Below are positions 13,991 through 38,645 of a stretch of 47,297 bases of DNA, in pieces. The notes beneath the pieces were generated by a model. That model did no database searches and was not told where the DNA came from. It worked only from the letters and a program-made list of their open reading frames with translations. A program made the position numbers and the translations under genes. Location: IMG/VR virus record IMGVR_UViG_3300048672_000226, positions 1-47,297 of that record. The stretch is one strand, 5' to 3'. How positions within the stretch are numbered: position 1 is the first letter of the stretch; each line of letters starts with the position of its first letter. The stretch is from a virus.

Positions 13991-16900
13991 TTAATCGGGT
14001 ATGCCTTTCATCCTTTCCGCTATCTCCCTATCTGAAAGCCCTAAACTTTTAAACATACTTTTTAAATCCTCTGTTGCTGTAGCAGTAAGTCCTGCACGTC
14101 CTGTTGATTTAGCTTTGAGTATTAAACCTAGCTTTGCTAAATCTAGTTTTCTTAGTTCTTCTTCTTTTAGACCTGTGTTTATATTACCTAGCATTTGTGT
14201 ACCAGCTTGTTGCTGATTGGCTACCTTAGCATTGTTGAAATCAACATACGACTGACGATAGGCATTATTCTGTTGTACGTTTGCTTGATTAACTGCTTGA
14301 TTTTGTGCGGTTAATTCTTGATTATAAGCATCTCTTCTAGCATTTTCAGCAGCAGCTACTTGATTGTTTGAGCTAAGTAGTGTTGCTGTAGCTGCTTGTT
14401 GGGCTGCCTTATCATTAGGCACTTGGCTTAACATACTACGAACTGCTGCTTCGTTACTGTATCTTTGCTGTGCGCTTCTATCTACATACGTATTAGGTAA
14501 AGCTGTAAATCGCTCCTGTGCTGCTGGTGCTTGTAGTTTATTATTAGCTAGTGTATCATTCAAATACCCTAATGCTGATAAAGCGTACGGTGTAATACTA
14601 GACAAAGAACTTGCTGTATCTTTATCTTGTGTAGCTACCTCAGGTGCTTGTAGTGTAGCTGGTTTTAAAGCTTGCATTTTTATAGCACTTGGTGTAAATG
14701 TTAATTTTGAATTTTTTATTGGTTGTATAGCAGGCACAGTTGCAAAAGTTTTAGGTTTTGGTGTTTCAACTATAGCTGGAGGCGTTCCTGCTATTGGCGG
14801 AGCATAGGACTTAGCTATAACTGGTTTTATTACAGGTCTGTTATCTATAACAGGCTTTGTTACTTTTTTTACTGCTTGCACTACAGGTTTTTGTACAGTA
14901 GTCTTTGGGCTTGTCATATAATCAGATATACTAGATATAAAATTACCTACTGATTCAGCAGCATGGTCTAATATACCTTTCTCATTTTTTACATATACTT
15001 CTGGTTTAACTTTATTTACAGTCGGTATTGTATACGGCTTTACATCAGAAACAGATACAGATGATTTAGACAATTCTGAATAAGTAGGGTCATTTACATC
15101 AACATCTAATGGTTTAAAAGACTGCCCTGTGTAAACATAGTTAGTGCCTTTAATAGTGTAAGGTTGCCCTATTTTATACTGTTGTTCATTATTATCTATT
15201 TGTGATGCTGTGACTAGATGTGTTGTTTTAGGTTTTGGTTTAGGTTTTGGTTGATTCAGATAACCACCAAAAGCAAACATTGCAGGCATTTTCTCCTGTT
15301 CTCCTTTACTGGCTTCTTGGTCTTGGAATGTAGCTTCTATAAGCATATCTAGTTTAGGCAACATTGAAGTTGCTGTATTTCTGCTTATATGGTCTGTCTT
15401 CTCTAGCTTCTTCTCCATCTTGCCTTTCATCTTACCTAGCTTAGTAACAAGTGTAGCATACGTATCAGAATCAGCTTTAAATCCTAATGTTTTTAAAACA
15501 CCTTTAAAAGGCTCACTTGGTTTAAGTCTATCACTAAATACTCTTTCTCCTCCAGTTCCTTCTACTCCACCCTCTTCGTGAGTCTCTCCTTTAATAACAT
15601 GAAGGTCAGAAGCTAATTGTTGGCTTTTACCTCCTTCTATATTAACACCATGTCCTTGTACAACCTCTTTGTCTTCTACTTCATACGGTTCATTAACTTC
15701 TCCACCTTTAGCATAAAAGCCACCAGCTTGATTGAAGTTACCTGTATATGCTGCCATATTAACTTTACCTGCTTCGTAAGAGTTTCTAGCTGTTGCTGTA
15801 TTTTGCTGTGCGAATAAGTTTTGTTTCTTTCTAGCATCCATATACCCAGTGATAAATCCTAGTGGTGCTGTTAGTGGATTATTTAAAGCTCCTGCAAAAC
15901 CGCTTAAAGCGGCATTAGGATTCATAGGGTCTATGAATTGTTCAGTAGCTTTACCTAATCCTTGACTAATGCCTGTAGCTAGAGATATTACTCCACCTAT
16001 ATCGAATATATCTTTTTTCATTAGTTGTCCGCCTTTAGAGTACTTTACTAGATTATAGGTTTTATTATCACCAAAAGTATGTGTACCGTATTGAAAAAAG
16101 TCACTTGGTTTTAAACCCTCTTTATTCTGTAGGTGATTCCTAAATCTGCCATTATCTAGCATTATGTATTTAGTTTTTGGATTTTTTTGTATAAAATCAT
16201 CTATAAGTTTTTTACTATTTTCAGGAGTATCTGCATTTATAAAAACTTTATTACCTGTTGTTTCTGAATATAGTATTGCTTTTCCTCCTTGTTTTATATT
16301 ATGAGGTATTAAACGACCTAAACTATCTTCAAGCTTTAATATCGTAGTTTCATTAAATATACCACTTGTTTTGAAGCCTGTTTTGTGTATTGGTATGTCT
16401 TTTGACCTTACGGGGATTATAACAGTTTCGTCCTTAAACTTATCCATTCCTCCTATAATAAGTTTGTCATTTTCTACACCATAGTATGTTTTTATATTTT
16501 TTACTGGTATTTCTTTATCTCCGAATACACCATCCTTGTTTTTATACCATTCTTTTTTAGTGCGTATAGAATTACCTTCGTCTTCTATAAACTCTCCTCC
16601 CATTATAGTATGTCCTTGTACAGGATTATCATTTAAGCTGGCTTTTACTTTAGAGTTCAAGTCTATTGTTATTGGCTTATTGCTGGTTTTACCATAATTT
16701 AAACCTACAGTACTTAGAGCCTTATCTACAACAGGGGTTATATATTTATCTATAATTCCTTTTTCTTCGATAGGTATAAATTGCCTAGAAATGACATCGT
16801 AAGAATATAATTTATTATTGTCAGTATTTAAGTACCTGCCATCTTTAGTTTTAGTATATGTTCTACCTAGAGCGTCTTTAGCATCTATTTTACCACCAAT

Positions 16901-17590
16901 GCTGTATTTAGGTAGTAATCCACCGTATGCGTATTTTAATGCTAGTTGTCCTCTGTCTTTAGCTTCTGTAGCCATTTTATTAGGTATTTCAAAATAACCT
17001 GTCCATAAAGCGGCTGCTTCTTCTTTTGTTATTTCTGGGTCTTGCAAAGCATCATATAAAGTCTTCCCTTTATACCTATTTACTAAATCACCATAACGTG
17101 AATTATAATCTCTGTACATAGGTTTTGAACTCTTGTATATAACAGTCTGTTTTGCCTCCTTCATAGCAAACTCTGTCTGTATTGTAGGGTCATGTATAGG
17201 GCTTTTATTAGATTCAGCAAAACTTTTTAAATTGTCAAGTCTGCCTACTCTATGCTGATATAATCCAAATGAAGGAGTATCTAAATGTAAATCTCCAGAT
17301 GTTCCAGAGTTCCATGCAGATTCTTTTTCTATATTACCCATTATTCCAGCTACACCATTTCTGTTATTAAGGTGCTTCATTAATGTATTAGCTACAGCAG
17401 ACTTAGATTCTTCGGCAGAGTACTTCTGACTTCTATCTCTAGTCTTCGGTATACCTATAGCATAGTCTACCTTAAATGGTTTATTATATACAGAAGTACC
17501 ATCAGCAACAGCTACGTTGCCTTTTATATCTCTTGAATCTATATGTAACCTAGAAGGGTCATTAGCTATTTCGCCTGCTCCTATTTTCAT
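13991..17590 (-). CDS. Tail-lysozyme cargo protein (crAss cargo C1-like)
   Basis: This encodes 1,199 residues. Residues 65-125 match the phage tail lysozyme fold: NGVAGIMGNIEKESAW (78-93), with Glu90 as the likely catalytic acid, then FGLYQHRVGRLDNLKSFA (108-125). Later there is a repeated Lys/Gly-Gly texture (YGGLLPKYSIGGK, YSKGGQLM, YAKGGEVN), and then an HEEGGVEGTGGERVFSDRL segment typical of large internal proteins of Bacteroidetes phages. The C-terminal third is Pro/Lys-rich and then Gln/Ala-rich helical. The expected role is a packaged protein that cuts peptidoglycan during genome delivery. Its ATG overlaps the previous stop (ATGA). The lysozyme domain is well supported; the cargo C1 assignment rests on position beside the second cargo protein and the polymerase. 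Confidence 0.7.
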   Translation of the reverse strand: MKIGAGEIANDPSRLHIDSRDIKGNVAVADGTSVYNKPFKVDYAIGIPKTRDRSQKYSAEESKSAVANTLMKHLNNRNGVAGIMGNIEKESAWNSGTSGDLHLDTPSFGLYQHRVGRLDNLKSFAESNKSPIHDPTIQTEFAMKEAKQTVIYKSSKPMYRDYNSRYGDLVNRYKGKTLYDALQDPEITKEEAAALWTGYFEIPNKMATEAKDRGQLALKYAYGGLLPKYSIGGKIDAKDALGRTYTKTKDGRYLNTDNNKLYSYDVISRQFIPIEEKGIIDKYITPVVDKALSTVGLNYGKTSNKPITIDLNSKVKASLNDNPVQGHTIMGGEFIEDEGNSIRTKKEWYKNKDGVFGDKEIPVKNIKTYYGVENDKLIIGGMDKFKDETVIIPVRSKDIPIHKTGFKTSGIFNETTILKLEDSLGRLIPHNIKQGGKAILYSETTGNKVFINADTPENSKKLIDDFIQKNPKTKYIMLDNGRFRNHLQNKEGLKPSDFFQYGTHTFGDNKTYNLVKYSKGGQLMKKDIFDIGGVISLATGISQGLGKATEQFIDPMNPNAALSGFAGALNNPLTAPLGFITGYMDARKKQNLFAQQNTATARNSYEAGKVNMAAYTGNFNQAGGFYAKGGEVNEPYEVEDKEVVQGHGVNIEGGKSQQLASDLHVIKGETHEEGGVEGTGGERVFSDRLKPSEPFKGVLKTLGFKADSDTYATLVTKLGKMKGKMEKKLEKTDHISRNTATSMLPKLDMLIEATFQDQEASKGEQEKMPAMFAFGGYLNQPKPKPKPKTTHLVTASQIDNNEQQYKIGQPYTIKGTNYVYTGQSFKPLDVDVNDPTYSELSKSSVSVSDVKPYTIPTVNKVKPEVYVKNEKGILDHAAESVGNFISSISDYMTSPKTTVQKPVVQAVKKVTKPVIDNRPVIKPVIAKSYAPPIAGTPPAIVETPKPKTFATVPAIQPIKNSKLTFTPSAIKMQALKPATLQAPEVATQDKDTASSLSSITPYALSALGYLNDTLANNKLQAPAAQERFTALPNTYVDRSAQQRYSNEAAVRSMLSQVPNDKAAQQAATATLLSSNNQVAAAENARRDAYNQELTAQNQAVNQANVQQNNAYRQSYVDFNNAKVANQQQAGTQMLGNINTGLKEEELRKLDLAKLGLILKAKSTGRAGLTATATEDLKSMFKSLGLSDREIAERMKGIPD
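15289..15320 (+). repeat. Dispersed motif copy E
   Basis: The plus strand reads a pyrimidine-rich TTTTCTCCTGTTCTCC followed by TTTACTGGCTTCTTGG. It lies inside the lysozyme cargo gene, antisense to coding. Its core differs from copies B, F and J by one base. Confidence 0.75.
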
Positions 17591-18345
17591 CGTCGTACTG
17601 GTTTAGATTGTATTGATACATCAAATATCTTTAGGTCTAGTTGTAAAGCGTTATTGAATTTAAGCTTTAATATAACATAATCATCCTCTAATCTTCTAAG
17701 CAGTTCGTTAGCTTTAGTAGGATTTACATTACCTGTGTTAATAACACAATCATCCAGAAATTCAGTAAATGTTTCTACATTGTTATTGACAATCATATCT
17801 CTGAACTTATTGAAGTTCCAATAGCTTCTTACCTTTCTTGTATTATATACATCGTAGTTTTGCTGTATAGTTTTGTTTGTATCGAAAGGTATCAATGTTT
17901 GCTCGTTAGTGCTTTGATATGATGTGTGTAAGCTTATACTACTTAACGTCATATTCTGTAACTCTAGGTCACTTGTACCTATAGCTTCTACATCTGTATT
18001 CCAACTCACATTAACCAGCTGCATAGGTAATGTGCCTTTTTCTGTTTTGTATGGTGTTGTAAATACAGGTGTTATATATGATGGATACGTTTTATTTTCA
18101 TAAAATGTTCCTACAGAATCATGGTCATTATGTCTATACAAGAAGCCATTAAAGAGAGAAATGAGAGAACTCGTTTCAGTATCCCTCCCACTCCATATAC
18201 CTTCTGGTATATAGTCATGGAAACTTACCCATGAATTATCTACCGAAGTAAAGCTAATAGTGTAACTAGCATCGTCTAAATCTGTTACATCTTCTAATTC
18301 TACCTCTACGGTATCCTCTGGTATATTACATGGTTGGCAAATCAT
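17587..18345 (-). CDS. Detached muzzle C-terminal-like domain protein
   Basis: This encodes 252 residues. The segment SYTISFTSVDNSWVSFHDYI (about 27-46), followed by a Phe-Asn-Gly-Phe-Leu-Tyr-Arg-His-Asn run (66-74), Gly-Thr-Phe-Tyr and a beta-rich region, resembles the C-terminal part of crAss-like muzzle proteins as I know them. There the segment normally sits in the same polypeptide. Here it is a separate gene, two genes downstream of the 1,339-residue muzzle protein. The C-terminal 80 residues contain two helical segments and then strands. It overlaps its neighbours on both sides by ATGA junctions. I infer a tail component that completes the muzzle. The alternative is an independent tail protein that shares the domain. 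Confidence 0.5.
   Translation of the reverse strand: MICQPCNIPEDTVEVELEDVTDLDDASYTISFTSVDNSWVSFHDYIPEGIWSGRDTETSSLISLFNGFLYRHNDHDSVGTFYENKTYPSYITPVFTTPYKTEKGTLPMQLVNVSWNTDVEAIGTSDLELQNMTLSSISLHTSYQSTNEQTLIPFDTNKTIQQNYDVYNTRKVRSYWNFNKFRDMIVNNNVETFTEFLDDCVINTGNVNPTKANELLRRLEDDYVILKLKFNNALQLDLKIFDVSIQSKPVRR
18139..18168 (-). repeat. Dispersed motif copy F
   Basis: The minus strand reads TCTCTCATTTCTCTC followed by TTTAATGGCTTCTTG. It lies inside the detached muzzle-domain gene, in the frame that reads Phe-Asn-Gly-Phe-Leu. Confidence 0.75.
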
Positions 18346-19328
18346 TGTATTAAATGTTTAAAGTATTTACCAGCTTCTTTCATTTCTTTTACATACATAT
18401 ATGATGCTGTACTTGGATTTATAAACGAGAAGTCATCATTAAATGGCATCTTTAATTTATATGCGCCTTTATCAAACAGCTCTTTATTATCTGACATCAC
18501 ACCAGCATTGTGCATGAAAGGTCTTTCTAGGTATGTTTTAAAATCAGAAGTACCCCAACTAAAATCTAAAAGCGGTGTCTCGATAACTTTGAATTTATGT
18601 TTCCATAAACAAAACAGTTCAGCCCACATTCCCGCTGTCCATATCTGTATCTTCCTATCTTGGTAAAACTGTTCTAATGATTTACTTAATGAGGCATCTT
18701 CTGGAAAGTATACAGAGTGGTATTCAAATAACTCATTCATATATTCCTGCTTGACCTGTGATATTGTATTATATATATTATCACAATCAGCTGATACTTC
18801 ATTCCAATATGCAGCGTTTGTACCAATACCGTAATACTGCGCACCTCCACTGTTATTACGGTTACTTAGAATATTATTATATGTAACGCCTGTAACTTTA
18901 CACATATCGTCTATTATAGTTCTACCCTTTTGTTTAAGGTAGTCATATCCTAGATAACTGCTACATGGCGCTACGTAATATGCTCCATCTTGCATTAATG
19001 TGTAGTTAGGTATATCCCTGTAAATTATATCAGAATCGTGGTACAATATATACTCTTTTTCAAATTCTGGAAAATCTTTAAAGAATTTTTCAAAAAGTTT
19101 AGGTCGGACTATAGGTAGGTATGCAGAAGTATAGTCTTTCTTATAAAAGATTACTCTAATACCTGTCTCTTTTGCAAGCTTAATATAGTTTTGGTCTGGT
19201 GCTGTTTCATACTCTATCACTATAATAACTTTACTCATGTCTATTCCAACACGAATAAAGTTATATACCTGTACTAGCGTTTGCCAATACATGAATACCG
19301 ATTGACTAAAAGAGGTTATATGGTACAT
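18342..19328 (-). CDS. GT-A type glycosyltransferase
   Basis: This encodes 328 residues. Residues 33-39 (KVIIVIE) form a first Rossmann-type strand. The segment YILYHDSDIIYRD (93-105) carries the DxD metal/nucleotide-sugar motif at Asp98-Asp100. GGAQYYG (161-167) and MHNAGV (272-277) match the acceptor/donor-loop positions seen in GT-A enzymes. It has no membrane segment. The open frame begins at 19328, 13 nt inside the previous gene, but the domain starts at Met31, so an ATG at 19238 is a credible alternative start. It sits between a possible glycosidase and the detached muzzle domain. It may modify the phage's own Thr-rich tail proteins or host surface glycans; the acceptor cannot be read from sequence. 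Confidence 0.72.
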   Translation of the reverse strand: MYHITSFSQSVFMYWQTLVQVYNFIRVGIDMSKVIIVIEYETAPDQNYIKLAKETGIRVIFYKKDYTSAYLPIVRPKLFEKFFKDFPEFEKEYILYHDSDIIYRDIPNYTLMQDGAYYVAPCSSYLGYDYLKQKGRTIIDDMCKVTGVTYNNILSNRNNSGGAQYYGIGTNAAYWNEVSADCDNIYNTISQVKQEYMNELFEYHSVYFPEDASLSKSLEQFYQDRKIQIWTAGMWAELFCLWKHKFKVIETPLLDFSWGTSDFKTYLERPFMHNAGVMSDNKELFDKGAYKLKMPFNDDFSFINPSTASYMYVKEMKEAGKYFKHLIQ

Positions 19329-20656
19329 CTGTATAATTCAGCTTTAGTTCCTTTTACTGGTAATGTTACATTTAATCCTGTAGTTGTATCAAATACTCTA
19401 ACAGTCTTTGTACTTAGATTAGATGCCCAGTTATTCATTACTAGAATAACACACTCTGTTTTAGCATCATTGTACTTTAATTGTACAACAGGCTCAGCAT
19501 ATAATTTATTATATGGTACTAGCTTAAATACTCCTGTACGAATATTATTACCATACTGAAAATCTGGAGTTTCCCAGCCATGCCCTGTAGCTTGAATAAT
19601 ATCTTTGTTTGGGCTTATGTGCTGTATAGCTAAATCCCAATATAGTCTATTACCTTTCCACACTCTAGGTAATACTTTAGCCCATGTCTCTGTACCTATA
19701 GATGTTTGAACAAGACCCATTTCCTGCTCTATACTCAAATCATCAGAATCTATTTGAGGCATTACTCCTTCCCAACCTAGTAAACCATCACATCGAGATA
19801 AGCACACTAATGCTGCATTATGTACATACTCTGCATTAGCATTAGCCTTAGCTCCTGATAGGTTAATAAACTGTCCATCTTGTCGCTTTCTTTGCATACT
19901 ATGTAAAAATGGAAATCCATCTACTGTTTCATTCTCCATCCATAATAAACCATACAATGGCATATTACCATATTTCAATTCAGCTAGCTGCTTTTGATAT
20001 ATGATATATGCAGGATAGTCATAGTTGTTATCATTGAAACTGTATATCTGCTGTAACATAGAGTTACAACCTACATCTACCTGTGCTGAATATATTAAGC
20101 TCGTATTGGAATACGGGTTTATCAAATTACTGATATTGCCTGATACATTATACCATTGGCTTAAATTACCTATAGCTTGAAATGAGTATAGACACACTTT
20201 GGTAGTAGGGCTATTTGCAATAACAGCTCCAATCAAACTTCGCAACTTATCCCTCTTAGATATATTACCTGCTACAGCAGCTCCATCATAACCAAGCGGT
20301 GTTTCAGCATTTAGCCAAACTATATCTTCCGTATTTAAAGCTAGTGTCCATTGGCTTTCATCGTGCGGATTAGAAGGATTCCATCCAAAATCTGTAAAAT
20401 TAACACGCTTGCTTGCAGGGTAATTTGTAAGACCTCCTAAGTTTGTATAGAATCTATTATGCCCTATACGCTCTAGCGGAATTTTATTACTAACTATTCC
20501 TGCTACATCCTGTTCTGTTCTTAGCATAGATGCTGATACCTTATTACTAGGTAATGAAGCATCTGGAAATGTTGTATAGTCTGGTAATCTCTTTGACGCA
20601 AAGGACATAGAGTTCCAAAACCATGATGGTGTTGCTGATGTAGTTACCTTTGTCAT
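19316..20656 (-). CDS. Tail-associated protein, possibly glycoside-hydrolase-like
   Basis: This encodes 446 residues and I do not recognise the family. The layout looks like an alpha/beta barrel: strands ending in acidic residues, such as DIVWLNAETP (111-120, Glu118) and PLYGLLWMENETVDG (233-247, Glu241 and Glu243), separated by helices. A C-terminal beta-sandwich-like region follows (about 370-446). Two acidic residues at strand ends would suit a retaining glycoside hydrolase, but this is inference. It has no signal peptide. The ATG overlaps the muzzle stop (ATGA), and the glycosyltransferase frame opens inside its last codons. A virion enzyme acting on capsule or glycans, or a non-catalytic binding protein, are both possible. 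Confidence 0.4.
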   Translation of the reverse strand: MTKVTTSATPSWFWNSMSFASKRLPDYTTFPDASLPSNKVSASMLRTEQDVAGIVSNKIPLERIGHNRFYTNLGGLTNYPASKRVNFTDFGWNPSNPHDESQWTLALNTEDIVWLNAETPLGYDGAAVAGNISKRDKLRSLIGAVIANSPTTKVCLYSFQAIGNLSQWYNVSGNISNLINPYSNTSLIYSAQVDVGCNSMLQQIYSFNDNNYDYPAYIIYQKQLAELKYGNMPLYGLLWMENETVDGFPFLHSMQRKRQDGQFINLSGAKANANAEYVHNAALVCLSRCDGLLGWEGVMPQIDSDDLSIEQEMGLVQTSIGTETWAKVLPRVWKGNRLYWDLAIQHISPNKDIIQATGHGWETPDFQYGNNIRTGVFKLVPYNKLYAEPVVQLKYNDAKTECVILVMNNWASNLSTKTVRVFDTTTGLNVTLPVKGTKAELYRCTI

Positions 20657-23600
20657 TCTGCTACTTGTATAGTATATGAAAATGAATTTACATTATCTGC
20701 ATTAGTGGGGTCTATTTGCACTATTTGTATTTCTACAGTACACCCTTTATAATGCGCTGGTATTGTGTAGTTTACAAGAGGAGAATTAGATACTGCCTCT
20801 TTATTAAACTTCCAGTATTTAGTATATGCTGGATTGTAATTATTCCATGCTGAATCTGTTATTGTTAGTCCATCATTTGCTATCTCTAACTTGCTTGCCC
20901 AGAATAATAGATTACCACCATTATCATAAATACCATAACCAGTTCCTACATAAATACCGCTTTGGTAATGCTTGAACGGTGCTAGTATTCTTGTATTGCT
21001 TGGAGTGCTTAATGCAGAAGCACTGACTGTAGATGATGCTGTTGTTATTACACCATTTACAACTCCAACCTTTTTCAGAATACTATTGCTATCAAAAAAC
21101 GCAATGTATCCAGTACCTAATAACTGTGTACCAAGTGTATCTTTAAATACCACAGAACCGATATTAATACCGTTTGTAGTATATACTGTTTGAAGTGTGT
21201 TCGATACTCTACTAAATACATTTAATATACTATCAAATATATCCGCATCGCTTTGATATATAGTAGGGTTACCTATAAATATATTATCAACTCTTTGCAA
21301 ATTACTAGGCGGTTGCGTTGTAGTTGCTTGAGTTGTAGAGGTAGTCGGTGCAATAGTCGTTGTAGTCGCCACAGTAGTTGTACTTGTTGGTACAGTTGTA
21401 GTTGGCGCTACAGTAGTCGTAGTAGGAGCAGTAGTAGATGGTGCAGTAGAAGGTAATGAAGAATCAGTAACTCTTCTATACCTCCCTTCCTTAAATACTA
21501 TATCTCCAAGACCTAGTGTTCTTTTAAAGAAGCTGTCAGCCTCTTTCCATAATCCTGCAAACCTAGACATATCTTGCTGTTTTAATTGTTTGAACTTTCT
21601 TGTAAGTAAAAGTCTATCATATCGTTCATCATACGCAGCTTGCATTGCATATCCATTATACGGATTATCTCCATAACACTCTTTGTTGTCTTTAAAGAAT
21701 GTACGTAAACCTAAATCAGATATGACTTTTACATTATCAGCAACAATAAACCAAGCTCCTTTATCTACATCATAGAATACATATCCTAACGGACACAGCA
21801 AGCATGAAAACTTATGCTTTGTTCCTAATTGCCCTAGTTTTGTATGTAGTATCTCTTCTGGCTCTGATGCAAATATATCAGACGTTCCTAAATATATTAG
21901 CTCTGTAGAGGTTTGAAGTTGTCTGTTCTTAGGTATTGTTTTATATAAAGCTTCTTCATAATGTATATATAAAAAGTTAAGTCCTCCTTGAAGATTACTT
22001 ATCTTACCTCTATTAGTAGCTCCTGTAAATTTATCACCTTGTTTAAAGTTTCTCCAAAAGTTCTTGTTAGATGCTTCTCCTTTACTACGTATTATTGAAA
22101 ACAGCTCTTTCTGTATAAAGTTATTAAATACCTCTGGTGTTAATATTTCACTAACTTGATACACATTCAAACTGTTAAAGTCTTTACTGTAACCAGACTT
22201 AAACAGATTCGGTTCTAGGTCTTTTCTAAAATCTTTTAAATAGGTATTGTAATAATCTATAAAAGCACTTTTTGGAAAATACCTTGTATAACCATTTAGC
22301 TCATTAACATTCTCATACCTTAATCCAATATTATATTGAGATTCACAGATAAATCTATGCACAGCTTTTATTCCTCCATATATACCATCAAACTTAGACG
22401 TATCATCAGAACCAGAAGTTATATCATTATAATCTTTACTGTTTACTCTGTTAGTTAATCTGCCATATGTATTAAAGCTATAATCACATATAAATATATC
22501 ACCACCCCAAATAGTATTCATACTAGAGTTACTTAGTGATACTATCGTTTGTTGATTAAACTTAGAATAGCAATTTTTAATCACATTTAAAAGAGTAACT
22601 AAAAACGTTTCATAATACGCATTAGAATCGTATGCTGTATTTGCTACATCTGTTGTTATCTCTTGACTTCCCTCATTACGGATTAGAATATTTTGTAAAT
22701 ACCTTGTAGGTAAATCTGTATGTAACGGAGTTACAAATGGCATATCATCAAACTCAAATGTTACACAAGCTTCTGTTAATAGATTGTCTACATCATTAGA
22801 TATTGTATTAAATGGTACAATCTGTGTATCTTTAACAGTTTGATAATCTTCTGTAATACCAACCGATTTAGCATTTACACTATCTGTAAAATCAGCTTTA
22901 AGGAAGTATGATTTATCATTCTTACCACTACCTAAGTCATTGGTAAGAAAAAATCCCTCCATTGCCTTTTTCTGCAATCTGTATTCTAATCTTAATCCAT
23001 TGAATGTAGGATTTATACCACTATGTAAATATTCAAAAGGGTACACTCTAGGTTTATGAGAAGCGTCTAGTCCTGTATTATCTACTTGTGTAATATTCCA
23101 GTTACCTCCCATACTGACACGCTGATTAAGCTCATACCCTCTATCTTTTTCAGTATGGAATATTATAATACTTTGTCCGCTTGTTGTAGAGTTATTGAAG
23201 TCTCTTCTAGCAAAACCTATCTCATATCCGTATGGTATATCTCCATTACAGTCTACTAACGCTGCTAGATTTATACCATTGACTTTTATACCGAGCCTAT
23301 CCATTGTGGACACACCGTATGAATCTTGTGTATATAGATTAGCTTTACACCACGCTAAAGATGGAAATTTGAAATGTCTTACATTACCTCCATTGAAACC
23401 GCAGTTATCTGGATATACCTCATTCCGATTTTCCCAAAATGACATACGTCCTCTTGTAACACCTCCAGATGTTGTAATCACACTACAGGTATCTTTTATC
23501 TGATACCGTAGAAATGTTTCTCCGTTAGCTAATGTAATAGGTGTCTTTTCAAAGTTAGTCCCTTCTCTACCTTGAAGTACGTGCCATCTACCAATACCCC

Positions 23601-24672
23601 ACTGCCAGTGAAAGCGTATATAAAAAGCGTACACCTCTCCATGAGCAAATGTCCTTTCTACATTATTCTTAAATGTGCTTTCTGTTTTAACTTCTTCTAG
23701 TTTAGATAGCCACTCTACAGTGTACGTATTTACCTCTTCTTGCATATTAGGTTCTACATAGTTACCTAATTCAGCAGCGAATAGCTCTTTTTGGACTTGA
23801 GTTAAATGGCGTATTGTTTTATATATGGCATAGTCTATAGAAAATTCAGCAAGGTCTATAGATGTCTTTAACTCCTGTCCTGTTATAGTTACGTCTAAAA
23901 AGGAAGATGTTATATTTTCTTTAGTATAGTATTTAGCTGTAAGTACTCCATCCCTAGTTTCTAAAAACCCGATGTGTATATACGCATACGATAAGTCTAT
24001 GCCTGTTATATTTAAAGCTATTGCTTTAGTAGTATAGTCTTGTGGTGAGTTTCCATCAAAGTCTGTATAATTACCATAGTTATCTTTTACGATATTAATA
24101 GGATTATACATTTTAAATATGTTAGATACTGAACCATCTAAACGCTCTAATTGCACAAATGGTATCCAACTACCAGACTGTAATGACCCTCCTGTAGTAA
24201 TTACCGAACTTTCTATCTTAGGAGCTACCGCATGATTGAATAATAATGTATTTTCACAAGTTACATCAGCATCTTCTGTATTTAGGTTTAGTGTTCTAGG
24301 TGGATTGAAGTTATCTGTCCATGCTATAACCGTCTCATTCTTATTGTTTATATAAAATTCACCATGTATAGGATACAGGGTATTAAATGCAAAACAAAAC
24401 AAGTCTGTTACTTTACGGTATTTACCATACTTATTAACAATACCTATTTCTGAACTACCCCCATTAGTAATAGTAAAAAGCACAAAAGAGCTGTCTGGTA
24501 TATTTATTACACCTACTACAGTTCTTTGTACTCCATCTATAAGAGTAAATCCTTTTTCATTAGTGATTGCTCCTAGCGAATCAGTCTTTAGAATATTCTT
24601 GTTAATGCGAGTAGACCCTTCTGGATTCTGTGAAGGTTTACCATCTAACCACATACCTTTTGAATGTTTCAT
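20653..24672 (-). CDS. Muzzle ('tail stabilization') protein, crAss-like
   Basis: This encodes 1,339 residues. The N-terminus (MKHSKGMWLDGKPSQNPEGS, then a Thr-Arg-Ile-Asn run) and the early DNFNPPRTLNL segment are typical of the large crAss-like muzzle protein that forms the distal tail tube. A long beta-rich body runs to about residue 1060. A mucin-like Thr/Pro/Ala/Ser linker follows (about 1072-1121, repeats of TTTxAPTTT type), then a 218-residue beta-sandwich-like tail. The usual C-terminal segment with the SFHDYIP-like motif is missing here and appears in the gene at 17587-18345. The ATG shares one base with the peptidase stop (TAATG). The family call rests on size, order and the N-terminal motif. 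Confidence 0.75.
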   Translation of the reverse strand: MKHSKGMWLDGKPSQNPEGSTRINKNILKTDSLGAITNEKGFTLIDGVQRTVVGVINIPDSSFVLFTITNGGSSEIGIVNKYGKYRKVTDLFCFAFNTLYPIHGEFYINNKNETVIAWTDNFNPPRTLNLNTEDADVTCENTLLFNHAVAPKIESSVITTGGSLQSGSWIPFVQLERLDGSVSNIFKMYNPINIVKDNYGNYTDFDGNSPQDYTTKAIALNITGIDLSYAYIHIGFLETRDGVLTAKYYTKENITSSFLDVTITGQELKTSIDLAEFSIDYAIYKTIRHLTQVQKELFAAELGNYVEPNMQEEVNTYTVEWLSKLEEVKTESTFKNNVERTFAHGEVYAFYIRFHWQWGIGRWHVLQGREGTNFEKTPITLANGETFLRYQIKDTCSVITTSGGVTRGRMSFWENRNEVYPDNCGFNGGNVRHFKFPSLAWCKANLYTQDSYGVSTMDRLGIKVNGINLAALVDCNGDIPYGYEIGFARRDFNNSTTSGQSIIIFHTEKDRGYELNQRVSMGGNWNITQVDNTGLDASHKPRVYPFEYLHSGINPTFNGLRLEYRLQKKAMEGFFLTNDLGSGKNDKSYFLKADFTDSVNAKSVGITEDYQTVKDTQIVPFNTISNDVDNLLTEACVTFEFDDMPFVTPLHTDLPTRYLQNILIRNEGSQEITTDVANTAYDSNAYYETFLVTLLNVIKNCYSKFNQQTIVSLSNSSMNTIWGGDIFICDYSFNTYGRLTNRVNSKDYNDITSGSDDTSKFDGIYGGIKAVHRFICESQYNIGLRYENVNELNGYTRYFPKSAFIDYYNTYLKDFRKDLEPNLFKSGYSKDFNSLNVYQVSEILTPEVFNNFIQKELFSIIRSKGEASNKNFWRNFKQGDKFTGATNRGKISNLQGGLNFLYIHYEEALYKTIPKNRQLQTSTELIYLGTSDIFASEPEEILHTKLGQLGTKHKFSCLLCPLGYVFYDVDKGAWFIVADNVKVISDLGLRTFFKDNKECYGDNPYNGYAMQAAYDERYDRLLLTRKFKQLKQQDMSRFAGLWKEADSFFKRTLGLGDIVFKEGRYRRVTDSSLPSTAPSTTAPTTTTVAPTTTVPTSTTTVATTTTIAPTTSTTQATTTQPPSNLQRVDNIFIGNPTIYQSDADIFDSILNVFSRVSNTLQTVYTTNGINIGSVVFKDTLGTQLLGTGYIAFFDSNSILKKVGVVNGVITTASSTVSASALSTPSNTRILAPFKHYQSGIYVGTGYGIYDNGGNLLFWASKLEIANDGLTITDSAWNNYNPAYTKYWKFNKEAVSNSPLVNYTIPAHYKGCTVEIQIVQIDPTNADNVNSFSYTIQVAE

Positions 24673-25385
24673 TAGTCGTATCTTCGTATATATGTGATTT
24701 TATAAGAACGCTGTTTATAGAAAAAGCCCTGCTCCACTCTATTTAGTGGGTTTGATGTATTACCTTCAAAGACTTTAAACTTATCTTTTTCTGTACTTAC
24801 TAGCTCTTGACCTAGTGATGTATGAGATATGTACAAACCTACATGGTCTATGCGCTTTGAATTGTCTAGTCTGTAGCCTGTGACATATCCAACTTTTAGT
24901 TCGGAAGGGTCTATATACCATTTACCTTTTTCAAATACAATCTTAGATTTATCAATAAAGTTATTACTTGCCCAATACGGCTTATCTACAGTATATGTAA
25001 TACCTGCTTTTGTAAGTATGTAATATACAGTAGCTCCACAATACGCTGATGCTTTAGGTATCTTATTAAATGATACTATCTCATTAATCTGTGGATTTAT
25101 ATTATGTTCTATTTCTAGTTTACCGTTTAGAGTATTACATATATCTATAATACGTTTTTCTATAGGGGTAGCAGATTTCTTCTTTTTCTCTTGACTGGCT
25201 TCTTGCAAAGATAACAAACTGGGTTTAAATACAGTATTAATATTAACTATAGGCTTATCTAGTTTTATTACAGGTATGGCAGAAACAGTTATAGCTTTAG
25301 CTGGCTTTTCAACCTTTGCTAAAGCTATAACCACTACAAATGCTATTGCACTGATAAGTGTATATATATATTTGTTAATATCCAT
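24672..25385 (-). CDS. Membrane-anchored CHAP/NlpC-type peptidase (endolysin candidate)
   Basis: This encodes 237 residues. A single N-terminal hydrophobic segment (about 7-23) serves as a signal anchor. A Lys-rich linker (about 60-75) leads to a papain-like fold: SAYCGATVYYILTKAGI with Cys116, RIDHVGLYI with His181, and FEGNTS with Asn209 form a plausible Cys-His-Asn triad. It most likely cuts peptidoglycan cross-links or amide bonds for lysis. The start lies 43 nt inside the preceding five-helix membrane protein, an arrangement typical of holin-endolysin pairs. It could instead be a virion-associated entry peptidase, given its place directly before the muzzle gene. No Shine-Dalgarno site is seen. 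Confidence 0.68.
   Translation of the reverse strand: MDINKYIYTLISAIAFVVVIALAKVEKPAKAITVSAIPVIKLDKPIVNINTVFKPSLLSLQEASQEKKKKSATPIEKRIIDICNTLNGKLEIEHNINPQINEIVSFNKIPKASAYCGATVYYILTKAGITYTVDKPYWASNNFIDKSKIVFEKGKWYIDPSELKVGYVTGYRLDNSKRIDHVGLYISHTSLGQELVSTEKDKFKVFEGNTSNPLNRVEQGFFYKQRSYKITYIRRYD
25176..25205 (+). repeat. Dispersed motif copy G
   Basis: The plus strand reads TTTCTTCTTTTTCTC followed by TTGACTGGCTTCTTG. It lies inside the CHAP-type peptidase gene, where it encodes the Lys-rich linker. Confidence 0.7.
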
Positions 25386-26092
25386 ATTACGAAAAATAGT
25401 ATAGCTAGTGATTTGCTAGATTTCTGAACTGCTGTAAGCTGACCCCAAGTACTATTAGAATCTTCCATATTTTCTATAGTGCTGAATAGAAAATGGTACT
25501 CTGTTCTAAACCACCGCCATAATGTAAATATAGCTAAACCGAATATCATAGATGCTACATTCAGTGTTCCTACAATATCTTTTATTACATCAATGCCAAG
25601 TGCTTCAAAATTAACTGTATATAAATATGTAGTAGTACTTAATCCTATATACAATAACCAACTTTGTGTTATATACTTAGCTATAGTTTTTGCTGTAGGT
25701 ACTCCTACTTCATAATCACTTTGGCAGTCTTTGAAGTAGAATGTCGCTGTATTGCTTAAAGCGATGGCAATAGGAATAACAGAAAAAATCTTACAAAATT
25801 CAAATAATTTTGGGGGAAAAACAAGCACCCTATTAAACTCTAAAGCTATGTCTGGGCTTAGTAGTACAAGTAGCCAGAAAAGAGAGAGAAGGAGGGATTT
25901 CTGTGATAAAAAATACTTTATAGTGTTTACTGTACTAGGTACACAAGTATCTTCATCCATGTAATGTATCTCTGTAGCTTGTGCTTCATTTTCAGCTAAA
26001 AGCTTTAATACTGATTCTCTGGTTATGCAATCTTTTCCACCTATACTGGCTATAGCTTCTATATTCAGTATTTGTTTTTCTAGTGTAGGCAT
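25343..26092 (-). CDS. Five-helix membrane protein, holin-like
   Basis: This encodes 249 residues. About 60 soluble N-terminal residues are followed by five hydrophobic segments at roughly 65-80, 100-114, 144-160, 173-192 and 229-246. A cytosolic-looking loop near 205-228 contains acidic residues and Trp. No catalytic motif is present. The last 43 nt overlap the start of the CHAP-type peptidase gene, which suggests translational coupling and a holin or lysis-accessory role. It is large for a holin, so a membrane-integrated entry or exclusion protein remains possible. It ends with TAG, the rarest stop in this block. Confidence 0.5.
   Translation of the reverse strand: MPTLEKQILNIEAIASIGGKDCITRESVLKLLAENEAQATEIHYMDEDTCVPSTVNTIKYFLSQKSLLLSLFWLLVLLSPDIALEFNRVLVFPPKLFEFCKIFSVIPIAIALSNTATFYFKDCQSDYEVGVPTAKTIAKYITQSWLLYIGLSTTTYLYTVNFEALGIDVIKDIVGTLNVASMIFGLAIFTLWRWFRTEYHFLFSTIENMEDSNSTWGQLTAVQKSSKSLAILFFVIWILTNIYIHLSVQ
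25867..25896 (-). repeat. Dispersed motif copy H
   Basis: The minus strand reads CCCTCCTTCTCTCTCT followed by TTTCTGGCTACTTG. It lies inside the holin-like gene, across the first membrane segment, in a different frame from copies B, F and J. Confidence 0.65.
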
Positions 26093-26099
26093 TTTTAAA

Positions 26100-26921
26100 T
26101 TAGTTTGTGTAAAAGTTTTCTCGTATATAGTTTTTACTATTTGTCCATCTAAGTTTAAATAACTCCATTTGTCTAGGAGTTCTACGACGTTGTTGATTAG
26201 TAGCTCTAGCTTGCCATTTCTCTGTAAGTGCTTCTAAATCACCGAAACTGAATATCGGATGTTTTAAACCTTTCATTACCAGACCTCTCATACAGTACCA
26301 CTCTACGTAGGTGATAAGTTTCTGCTCGTCTTGAATTAGAGGATAGCCTCTTTCATCTACAAGTGGTTTAGTATACTGTACTACAACATTATCCGCATTA
26401 AAATTTGTTTTAATACAGCACTCTGAATCTTCCCACCAATAATCTCCAATGCCTGTCTCATTCAAATCTTTATAAAACGTATTGAATGTAAGTATATCGC
26501 CATTAAGATTTTTAAGGATTTGCTCTTTCCAATCGTCTGTCACATTACCACAATCATCAACCTGTAAAGGTAGATTCATACCACACGCTTGTTTAGTAGC
26601 ATCTGCTGTTTGTATAAGTTCTGTTAAAGCTGTATGAAAAGCCTGTATACCTTTTAAGCTTGCTGATGTTATTTTCCTGTTAGGTTTTACAAGTTTATTA
26701 TTTACAAATACATTATACACATCTATAGCTAATGCGTCTTTCTCTATTTTGTAATCTACAGCAGAAGTAACATCATACTCTACAGTATGATTTAATGGTA
26801 TATCTAATATACTTAAAGCTTCACCTATAGATTCATATATATCTATAGAGTACTGGTTTGCAGATACTCCGAACTTTCTTGCTACAGAAGCTATTATAAA
26901 TTCAGAACTTATGTATTTCAT
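26100..26921 (-). CDS. Connector/ring protein, crAss tail-ring type
   Basis: This encodes 273 residues. A helical N-terminus (MKYISSEFIIASVARKFGVS) is followed by a beta region, then a helical region with GDYWWEDSECCIKTN (about 152-166), and a C-terminal helical stretch (WYCMRGLVMKGLKHP through the Arg-rich QQRRRTPRQMELFK, about 208-254). Small helical proteins of this size encoded just before the muzzle are the ring (head-to-tail adaptor) proteins in crAss-like phages, and I infer that role. Adjacent genes overlap or nearly touch: ATGA with the upstream gene and 7 nt to the membrane protein. The last C-terminal residues are basic and aromatic. Confidence 0.5.
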   Translation of the reverse strand: MKYISSEFIIASVARKFGVSANQYSIDIYESIGEALSILDIPLNHTVEYDVTSAVDYKIEKDALAIDVYNVFVNNKLVKPNRKITSASLKGIQAFHTALTELIQTADATKQACGMNLPLQVDDCGNVTDDWKEQILKNLNGDILTFNTFYKDLNETGIGDYWWEDSECCIKTNFNADNVVVQYTKPLVDERGYPLIQDEQKLITYVEWYCMRGLVMKGLKHPIFSFGDLEALTEKWQARATNQQRRRTPRQMELFKLRWTNSKNYIRENFYTN

Positions 26922-37265: not shown

Positions 37266-38645
37266 TTATGTAACTATTACAGATATTATATCAGAATCAA
37301 AATTACACTCATTAATTACATTACAGGTAATAGGTTTAGTTCCTGTTGTATTAAATACTACTACTACAAAAGCAGCTCCATCACCACCAGACAATACAGT
37401 AGTTCCTACAGGTATTACCCAATCTATGGCTGTTGGAGTACTTCCAGAATATGTTACATTGTATGTTCTAGTTTGACCTATAGCGGCTGTTAAAGCTCCA
37501 GATACAGTTACTCCTGCTATAGGAGTACAACCGCAATTCGGATTCTGTATAGTAAATGTAGTACTGCAACTACCCTCAAAAGCTCTAACAACTATACCAC
37601 TTAAATTAGTAGAGTTTAGTATATATGAATTACCACTAACAGTTGAAATAGTTCCTCCAGATATAACTTCTAGTTGCCCATGACTTAAAACCACATTAGC
37701 GTTAAATGTAAATACGCTATTACATACTGCATTTTGAGATACTATTGTCGGTGTTACGCAATTAACTGTAATAGGTAATGTAGCATCGCTAGTTATTCCG
37801 CACTTAGTTACTTGGCAGTATAATAATGTAGTACCCACAGTAGTGAATTGTACTTCACAATAGTTATACCCATTACCACCACTTATTAATGTCTGACCTG
37901 CTCCTAATACCCACACAAACGTACCTCCTGTAGAGCCTGCATAGGTAGCTGTAAACATAACAGTTTGTCTATTATTGAATACATTCCCACCTGATATATT
38001 CACCGAGCTAGGAGGTGTACAACCTGCTGTAGTGCTTACTGGAACTGTTGTAGTGGTAGGTGCTGCTGTTGTAGGTATCATAGTAGTCGTTGGTGAAGTT
38101 GTTCCACTAGGACTACAAGCTGTAATAAATCCTTGTATTTCTTGAATACATCCTTTTATTCTAGCATGGCAACTAACTAATACTCCATTTGAAGGTACTG
38201 TAAGGATATATGTGTTTAAAGTATCACCATCTTCAAACTCCATTGTATTAGGATTCCAGAACTCTACTTGATGTCCTGCATTACCTGTTACAGATATTTG
38301 AGATTGTGTTGTACCATTTGGTAAACAAGTAATTGAATACGGTAGCCAAGACAGCGTTAAACTACACATAGATGTAGTTGTAGGCGCTACTGTTGTAGTT
38401 GGTGCTGTTGTTGTAGGCACAGTAGTGGTAGGTGCTGTTGTAGTTGGTACACAACCTGTCGCTACATCATCTACAGGACAGTCGCATAAGTCTAAATACG
38501 GACTGATATAATCAGGGTCTCCCACCACGTTACTTTTAGTAATTTGGTGTCCATTAGAATCTATAACAGGCAGTCCGCTATTCTTATATACTTTAAGAAG
38601 AGTAACTACTTTTACAGTACCTGTATTTCCAGTAATAGTTGGCAT
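37266..38645 (-). CDS. Thr-rich (mucin-like) multi-Ig-domain surface protein
   Basis: This encodes 459 residues. An N-terminal beta domain with LCDCP (53-57) is followed by a Thr/Pro/Ala linker (about 67-92, PTTTAPTTTVPTTTAPTTT) and a beta domain. A second Thr linker comes next (about 179-204), then tandem Ig/PKD-like domains. Two of these share the pattern GQT(R/V)xx(N/T)(V/A)TYxGST..(T/A)xxWVxxxGxxxxSGG(N/D)G, which indicates internal duplication. It has no signal peptide. Such proteins decorate phage capsids or fibres and can bind mucus glycans. The Thr-rich linkers resemble that of the muzzle protein and are candidate O-glycosylation or flexible spacer regions. The role is inferred. Confidence 0.62.
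   Translation of the reverse strand: MPTITGNTGTVKVVTLLKVYKNSGLPVIDSNGHQITKSNVVGDPDYISPYLDLCDCPVDDVATGCVPTTTAPTTTVPTTTAPTTTVAPTTTSMCSLTLSWLPYSITCLPNGTTQSQISVTGNAGHQVEFWNPNTMEFEDGDTLNTYILTVPSNGVLVSCHARIKGCIQEIQGFITACSPSGTTSPTTTMIPTTAAPTTTTVPVSTTAGCTPPSSVNISGGNVFNNRQTVMFTATYAGSTGGTFVWVLGAGQTLISGGNGYNYCEVQFTTVGTTLLYCQVTKCGITSDATLPITVNCVTPTIVSQNAVCNSVFTFNANVVLSHGQLEVISGGTISTVSGNSYILNSTNLSGIVVRAFEGSCSTTFTIQNPNCGCTPIAGVTVSGALTAAIGQTRTYNVTYSGSTPTAIDWVIPVGTTVLSGGDGAAFVVVVFNTTGTKPITCNVINECNFDSDIISVIVT

Follow-up and report, generated by a model that had tools for sequence, protein, structure and literature searches.

A tail muzzle gene divided into two genes at a beta-hairpin loop in a crAss-related phage fragment

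Our results indicate that the muzzle, the nozzle at the tail end, is encoded by two genes in a virus of bacteria represented by the 47,297-base IMG/VR fragment IMGVR_UViG_3300048672_000226 (hereafter the window). The muzzle of the gp44 family is a single polypeptide, whereas the two halves here are separate genes 2.3 kb apart: a 1339-aa protein carries the N-terminal part and, judging from profile matches, a 252-aa protein is the end of the muzzle (Table 1). We consider that the locus as a whole is best explained by a split muzzle that is rebuilt from two chains and holds an acquired module in the break, to which we assign a probability of roughly 0.78. The relationship of this phage to the crAss-like phages is drawn from a CrAss_Ring_1 match and from muzzle homology on a 47-kb fragment.

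Table 1. Coordinates of the muzzle locus and of other window genes mentioned in the text
Feature	Position	Strand	Basis or remark
459-aa gene	37266-38645		shares a domain with a fibre of another phage
Tail ring protein 1	26100..26921	-	Pfam CrAss_Ring_1, E 4e-9, 36.7 bits (cut-off 27); upstream of muzzle
249-aa apparent membrane protein	25343-26092		between ring protein 1 and muzzle
237-aa protein	24672-25385		between ring protein 1 and muzzle; weak endolysin-family match (phrog_21357, E 0.0012)
Muzzle N-part gene, 1339 aa	20653-24672	-
Muzzle N-part proper (residues 1-1027 of the 1339-aa protein)	21592..24672	-	ends ...AAYDERYDRLLLTRKF; includes first strand of the split hairpin
Hairpin loop, first half (residues 1028-1073, KQLKQ...EGRYRRVTDSSL)	21454..21591	-	comparison by eye
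Thr/Pro/Ser-rich linker, 50 residues (1074-1123 of the 1339-aa protein)	21304..21453	-	sequence itself
Acquired C-terminal domain, 216 aa (residues 1124-1339)	20656..21303	-	match in the 685-aa protein of G001
446-aa gene, same cassette as the acquired domain	19316..20656	-	match in G001
328-aa glycosyltransferase-like gene, DSD motif	18342..19328	-	phrog_4417 profile
Muzzle C-part, 252-aa protein (second hairpin strand to muzzle C-terminus)	17587..18345	-	profile matches
WVSFHDYIP motif (residues 39-47 of the 252-aa protein)	18205..18231	-
1199-aa tail-lysozyme protein	13991..17590	-	Phage_lysozyme2, E 4e-14; directly after C-part

Two proteins and one muzzle profile

A first-pass annotation of the sequence had read the locus as one muzzle split across two genes, and this interpretation is supported. 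On a full-length profile of 1660 positions, derived from nine unsplit IMG/VR muzzles, model positions 3-1357 were matched by the 1339-aa protein (E 2e-79) and positions 1399-1657 by the 252-aa protein, without overlap in coverage; thus the two genes tile one muzzle, and together they show the whole-chain homology of the gp44 family from position 3 to 1657, with diverged stretches in mid-chain. A profile made from 16 intact muzzle C-termini, with the window left out, matched the 252-aa protein over model positions 5-223 of 227 with E 4e-26, and matched none of the others among the 519 open reading frames of the window. As had been remarked earlier, the WxSFHDYIP segment is absent from the 1339-aa protein and present in the 252-aa protein, where it reads WVSFHDYIP. 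The segment lies ~200-310 residues before the C-terminus of intact muzzles, and a motif scan of IMG/VR found it in 15 stretches, whose complete motif-bearing reading frames were all 1580-2050 aa long. Conserved residues are retained in the C-part.

The proposed alignment to crAss-like muzzles succeeded in part. In pairwise comparisons the 252-aa protein aligned with terminal regions of muzzles, namely residues 1550-1780 of the 1783 of Fpv1 (E 3e-8), residues 923-1046 of the 1144 of cr127_1 (E 7e-7) and the ends of nine IMG/VR muzzles, but direct BLAST against crAss001 gp44, the example that the first-pass annotation had named, found no similarity, and gp44 reads FTSFMSYEG at the place of the motif. 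The link to gp44 runs through intermediate phages. That protein, a hexameric nozzle with ring-joining and propeller domains (PMC10172136), belongs to the same family profile, as the full-length profile matches its residues 8-391 and 1190-1304; unlike the muzzle of the window, it is one chain of 1371 aa. Neither the muzzle nor the 252-aa protein received a functional name from scans of Pfam, NCBIfam and PHROG, a sequence search of the PDB returned nothing convincing for any part of the locus, and a single-sequence IMG/VR scan with the 252-aa protein found no confirmed relative. An AF2 model of this protein from nine sequences had a pLDDT of 35.

All four genes (1339, 446, 328 and 252 aa) lie where the first-pass annotation had placed them, on the minus strand, and the gene order is that of the gp44 family, with the CrAss_Ring_1 gene upstream (two extra genes between) and the Phage_lysozyme2 gene directly downstream; the intact muzzles of cr127_1 and L057 are directly followed by endolysin or cargo-type genes. 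Most relatives have a ring-protein-sized gene directly before the muzzle, compared with the 237-aa and 249-aa genes in the window. From the 1339-aa gene through the 1199-aa gene, successive genes overlap by 4-13 bases, mostly as ATGA, and the 252-aa gene starts in such an ATGA overlap with the preceding gene. An alternative genetic code joining the halves is excluded, because the ATGA overlaps shift the frame, so that read-through of TGA would not join them.

The hairpin loop and the acquired cassette

The position of the break corresponds to a beta-hairpin loop. The two matches to the full-length profile are separated by 42 model positions, and in unsplit relatives a median of ~41 residues lies between the N- and C-profile matches. 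Previous work attributed length variation of the muzzle to insertions into the crass and IG2 domains (PMC10172136), whereas the break in the window, which in crAss001 terms falls beyond the IG2/crass insertion at about residue 1195 of gp44, near the C-terminal end, lies elsewhere and leads into two genes; the corresponding loop of gp44 has no insertion. Both loop halves are still recognizable by eye, with '...DIVFKEGRYRRVTDSS' on one side and 'VELEDVTDLDDASYTISF' on the other, compared with 'TPLEFDDTDYFTDSGWTVSY' in L031, and the first half was likewise matched by eye, at low similarity, to the 40-80 residue loops of L022, L030 and L036. Because loop residues are kept on both sides, nothing of the ancestral muzzle seems to have been lost. 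Some unsplit genes carry large domains inserted at this loop, of 966 aa (L060), 378 aa (L064), 371 aa (L075) and 192 aa (L072). The same cut in related phages suggests that the hairpin loop is a recurrent place for adding tail-tip parts, and a slot for surface modules is its best reading.

Past the break, the 1339-aa protein extends through a Thr-rich linker to a domain of 216 aa, in agreement with the earlier description of its end as such a linker followed by a different domain. The linker end and the domain are 50% identical in protein sequence (54% for the domain alone) to the C-terminus of an unrelated 685-aa fibre-like protein in the distant phage IMGVR_UViG_3300032225_002102 (G001, also L001), where the linker end aligns with a TP-rich stretch, and the 446-aa gene has a 58% identical counterpart of 461 aa immediately behind that fibre gene. 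At the DNA level, the cassette is 68% identical over 789 bases. In contrast, G001 keeps an intact muzzle of 1731 aa that is ~25% identical to that of the window, and other genes common to the two show 29-36% identity over short stretches, a pattern that fits horizontal transfer of the cassette. The comparison is thus consistent with the linker end, the domain and the 446-aa gene being a transferred cassette, and tracing it to another phage refines the first-pass annotation. G001 is its single occurrence besides the window: the acquired domain had no other match in an IMG/VR pattern scan, in phages or in the PDB, a single-sequence IMG/VR scan with the 446-aa protein found no confirmed relative, and a GTDB genome scan for the 446-aa pair, which requires exact peptide patterns, found none.

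The two genes between the halves had been described as possibly glycosidase-like and as a DxD glycosyltransferase. For the former, the suggestion was not borne out, as the 446-aa protein, which had no match at all in Pfam, NCBIfam, PHROG or the PDB sequences, could not be placed among glycoside hydrolases; its AF2 model from two sequences was uninformative (pLDDT 30), and it may have a hydrolytic role, which we regard as putative. For the latter, the 328-aa protein matches phrog_4417 over the family length (E 1e-54, profile 4-291 of 293) and its DSD motif is invariant in four members of that family, but PHROG lists no function for phrog_4417 and a sequence search of the PDB found no match. Relatives of this gene occur in 72 phage records. 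It had no counterpart in the records of 12 muzzle relatives, several of which are fragments, so its link to the muzzle is one of position only.

Other modules of G001 were also seen. A domain of the 459-aa gene of the window is also present in the middle of the 685-aa fibre (36% over 104 aa), and two window genes thus draw on modules of one G001 protein. Around the muzzle and fibre genes at L014/L015 (G001), genes judged by eye to be 2OG-Fe(II) oxygenase-like and glycosyltransferase-like, one of the latter with a weak phrog_4417 match, adjoin those for fibre proteins rich in long Thr-Pro repeats; this neighbourhood is possibly a cluster for the decoration of virion proteins.

Recurrence and origins of the break

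The break recurs in other phages at one structural place, a further refinement of the first-pass annotation. We sorted loci from motif and alignment scans of IMG/VR by whether the N- and C-profiles fall in one reading frame; calls are less certain for loci with fragmentary N-terminal frames, such as L183, L190 and L195. Unsplit relatives, which the first-pass annotation had suggested looking for, were found at 91 loci, ~70 of them distinct after 95% dereplication, whole at the hairpin loop. The crass/IMG group comprised 90 unsplit and 5 split loci (70 and 5 once C-parts at least 95% identical were removed) and the Baltivirus-like group 75 split loci (46 dereplicated, phi13:2 and ctfjg026 being among the 75) along with the unsplit Gundel_1, phi38:1 and elemoF, counts that are not frequencies because split sequences served as seeds for the second scan.

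The recurrence can be well illustrated by Cellulophaga phage phi13:2 (Pachyviridae, Baltivirus), whose gp120 and gp121 are split at the same hairpin and are both annotated as structural by similarity to phi8:3. The tail of gp120 after the break holds a bacterial Ig domain, and gp121 has 241 aa, the length of phrog_18548. Unlike the window, phi13:2 belongs to a separate lineage, carries another appended domain and has no gene between the halves, only a 4-base gap. The same split is found in ctfjg026 (MW202828) and many Baltivirus-like contigs of IMG/VR, mostly with one gene between the halves; that of ctfjg026 (183 aa) is annotated as 'putative glycosidase' and belongs to a family, constant at the N-terminus and variable beyond it, that is unrelated to the 446-aa gene of the window. 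A similarity of the 446-aa gene to the Baltivirus-like intervening genes in general was looked for and not found, and such a relationship is rejected. Most loci of the Baltivirus/environmental lineage carry a fast-evolving gene in the break: between random Baltivirus-like pairs, appended tails are ~41% and intervening genes ~40% identical, compared with 64% and 66% for the flanking muzzle parts. Such fast change would fit host-contact modules. The intervening genes of Baltivirus-like loci such as L018 and L118 are 179-575 aa long, have a conserved N-terminus (MATxxTYYLDxxSL..ATxVYSDxxL..APDGFYSDGxIVREQ) and a variable rest, and resemble an exchangeable tip protein.

In the crass/IMG group, the C-part of L053, L056, L065 and L079 is encoded by a gene of its own, with a separate start, next to the N-part gene and downstream of it. 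The N-part tails of the last three (540-870 residues) contain a DxSxS-like stretch (DDSGSMNS in L056) that is von Willebrand A-like, and a Pfam scan of these tails gave no match. At two other split loci, L183 and L195, we recognized by eye between the halves 2OG-Fe(II) oxygenase-like genes (390 and 418 aa) and glycosyltransferase-like genes (217 and 227 aa), a parallel to the enzyme gene of the window. The muzzle of Maribacter phage Panino (L200, 2777-6690) is annotated as two genes of 946 and 320 aa; its break lies upstream of the hairpin, with ~43 model positions missing, and is either a different break or an artefact of sequencing or annotation.

In the tree the window is nested among unsplit muzzles, so its split is derived, and since the Baltivirus-like split forms cluster with Gundel_1, phi38:1 and elemoF outside, that lineage likely had one derived split. 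Together with the crass/IMG group, at least two and probably three origins are indicated by these phylogenies. The same placement of unsplit forms around the window and outside the Baltivirus-like split clade makes it very improbable that a separate 252-aa gene is ancestral and was fused to the muzzle in other phages. A separate conserved family of this type, which the first-pass annotation had counted against a split, does exist in Baltivirus as phrog_18548, but this family is itself a homologue of the C-terminal muzzle part, produced by a split in parallel, and it thus strengthens the split reading. We give scarcely any weight to an assembly error or a decayed, non-functional muzzle: the window is a single contig, but all frames are open across the overlapping genes, G+C is even across the region, the C-part has kept its conserved residues and independent phages have the same break.

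The idea that an insertion divided one tail gene seems broadly right as to cause, but gene insertion is not needed to split a muzzle, since phi13:2 and the L053 group are split with no gene between the halves. These same phages lend some support to a different order of events, in which the loop first acquired a stop codon followed by a new start and the cassette and the phrog_4417 gene later joined an already divided gene. One old split may even be common to the window and the L053 group, whose single origin was not rejected (p_AU 0.077); however, two changes in the crass/IMG group are needed in the best tree and in all 200 bootstrap trees, with long branches that weaken either reading, and the appended domains of the two differ entirely. 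We consider the split-first order somewhat unlikely. Alternatively, the 446-aa and phrog_4417 genes might be passengers unconnected with the muzzle, their targets being the host cell or different proteins of the virion. Relatives of the phrog_4417 gene adjoin capsid or connector genes in the siphophages Planchet and iLp84 (Enterococcus and Lactobacillus phages), and in G001 the counterpart of the 446-aa gene comes after a fibre rather than the muzzle. Yet the domain that the 446-aa gene accompanies is precisely the one joined to the muzzle, and other split phages also have a gene between the halves, including the enzyme-like ones of L183 and L195. This alternative is plausible, with clearly less than an even chance in our estimation.

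A proposed two-chain muzzle as a carrier of surface modules

Our preferred explanation, a split muzzle rebuilt from two chains, would start from an ancestral muzzle gene that was split in the hairpin near its C-terminal end. As the four genes all overlap, they should be translated from one message. The strands on either side of the break would pair between the chains, so that one subunit of the hexameric muzzle is rebuilt in the virion from two polypeptides, a prediction made from sequence that draws on established knowledge of the muzzle (PMC10172136). The break would give the N-part a free C-terminal arm in place of an internal insert, and such an arm could be of any length and be exchanged by recombination. 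The acquired domain may hang from the virion surface on the flexible Thr-rich arm, where it could contact the host surface. Because the pair travels together, we speculate that the 446-aa protein works with the acquired domain. Glycosylation of the Thr-rich arm by the phrog_4417 protein is conceivable, but this is a guess that we think rather unlikely to hold.

It would be tempting to generalize that one nozzle hairpin is an insertion site across Bacteroidota podophages, where the gene has repeatedly been cut into a two-chain subunit that offers an exchangeable slot for surface domains and for enzymes serving or decorating them. We hold this idea tentatively, at a little under an even chance. 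A literature search found no description of such a muzzle split, most subscription journals being outside its scope, and automatic annotation labels the C-part of the muzzle an orphan hypothetical protein.

The muzzle forms the gate of crAss-like virions, and descriptions of it present one conserved chain. A two-chain muzzle that is always cut at one hairpin, in no fewer than two lineages and probably in three, would provide a natural map of where this protein tolerates cutting and cargo, and the modules of split muzzles are candidate host-contact parts in phages without known receptors.
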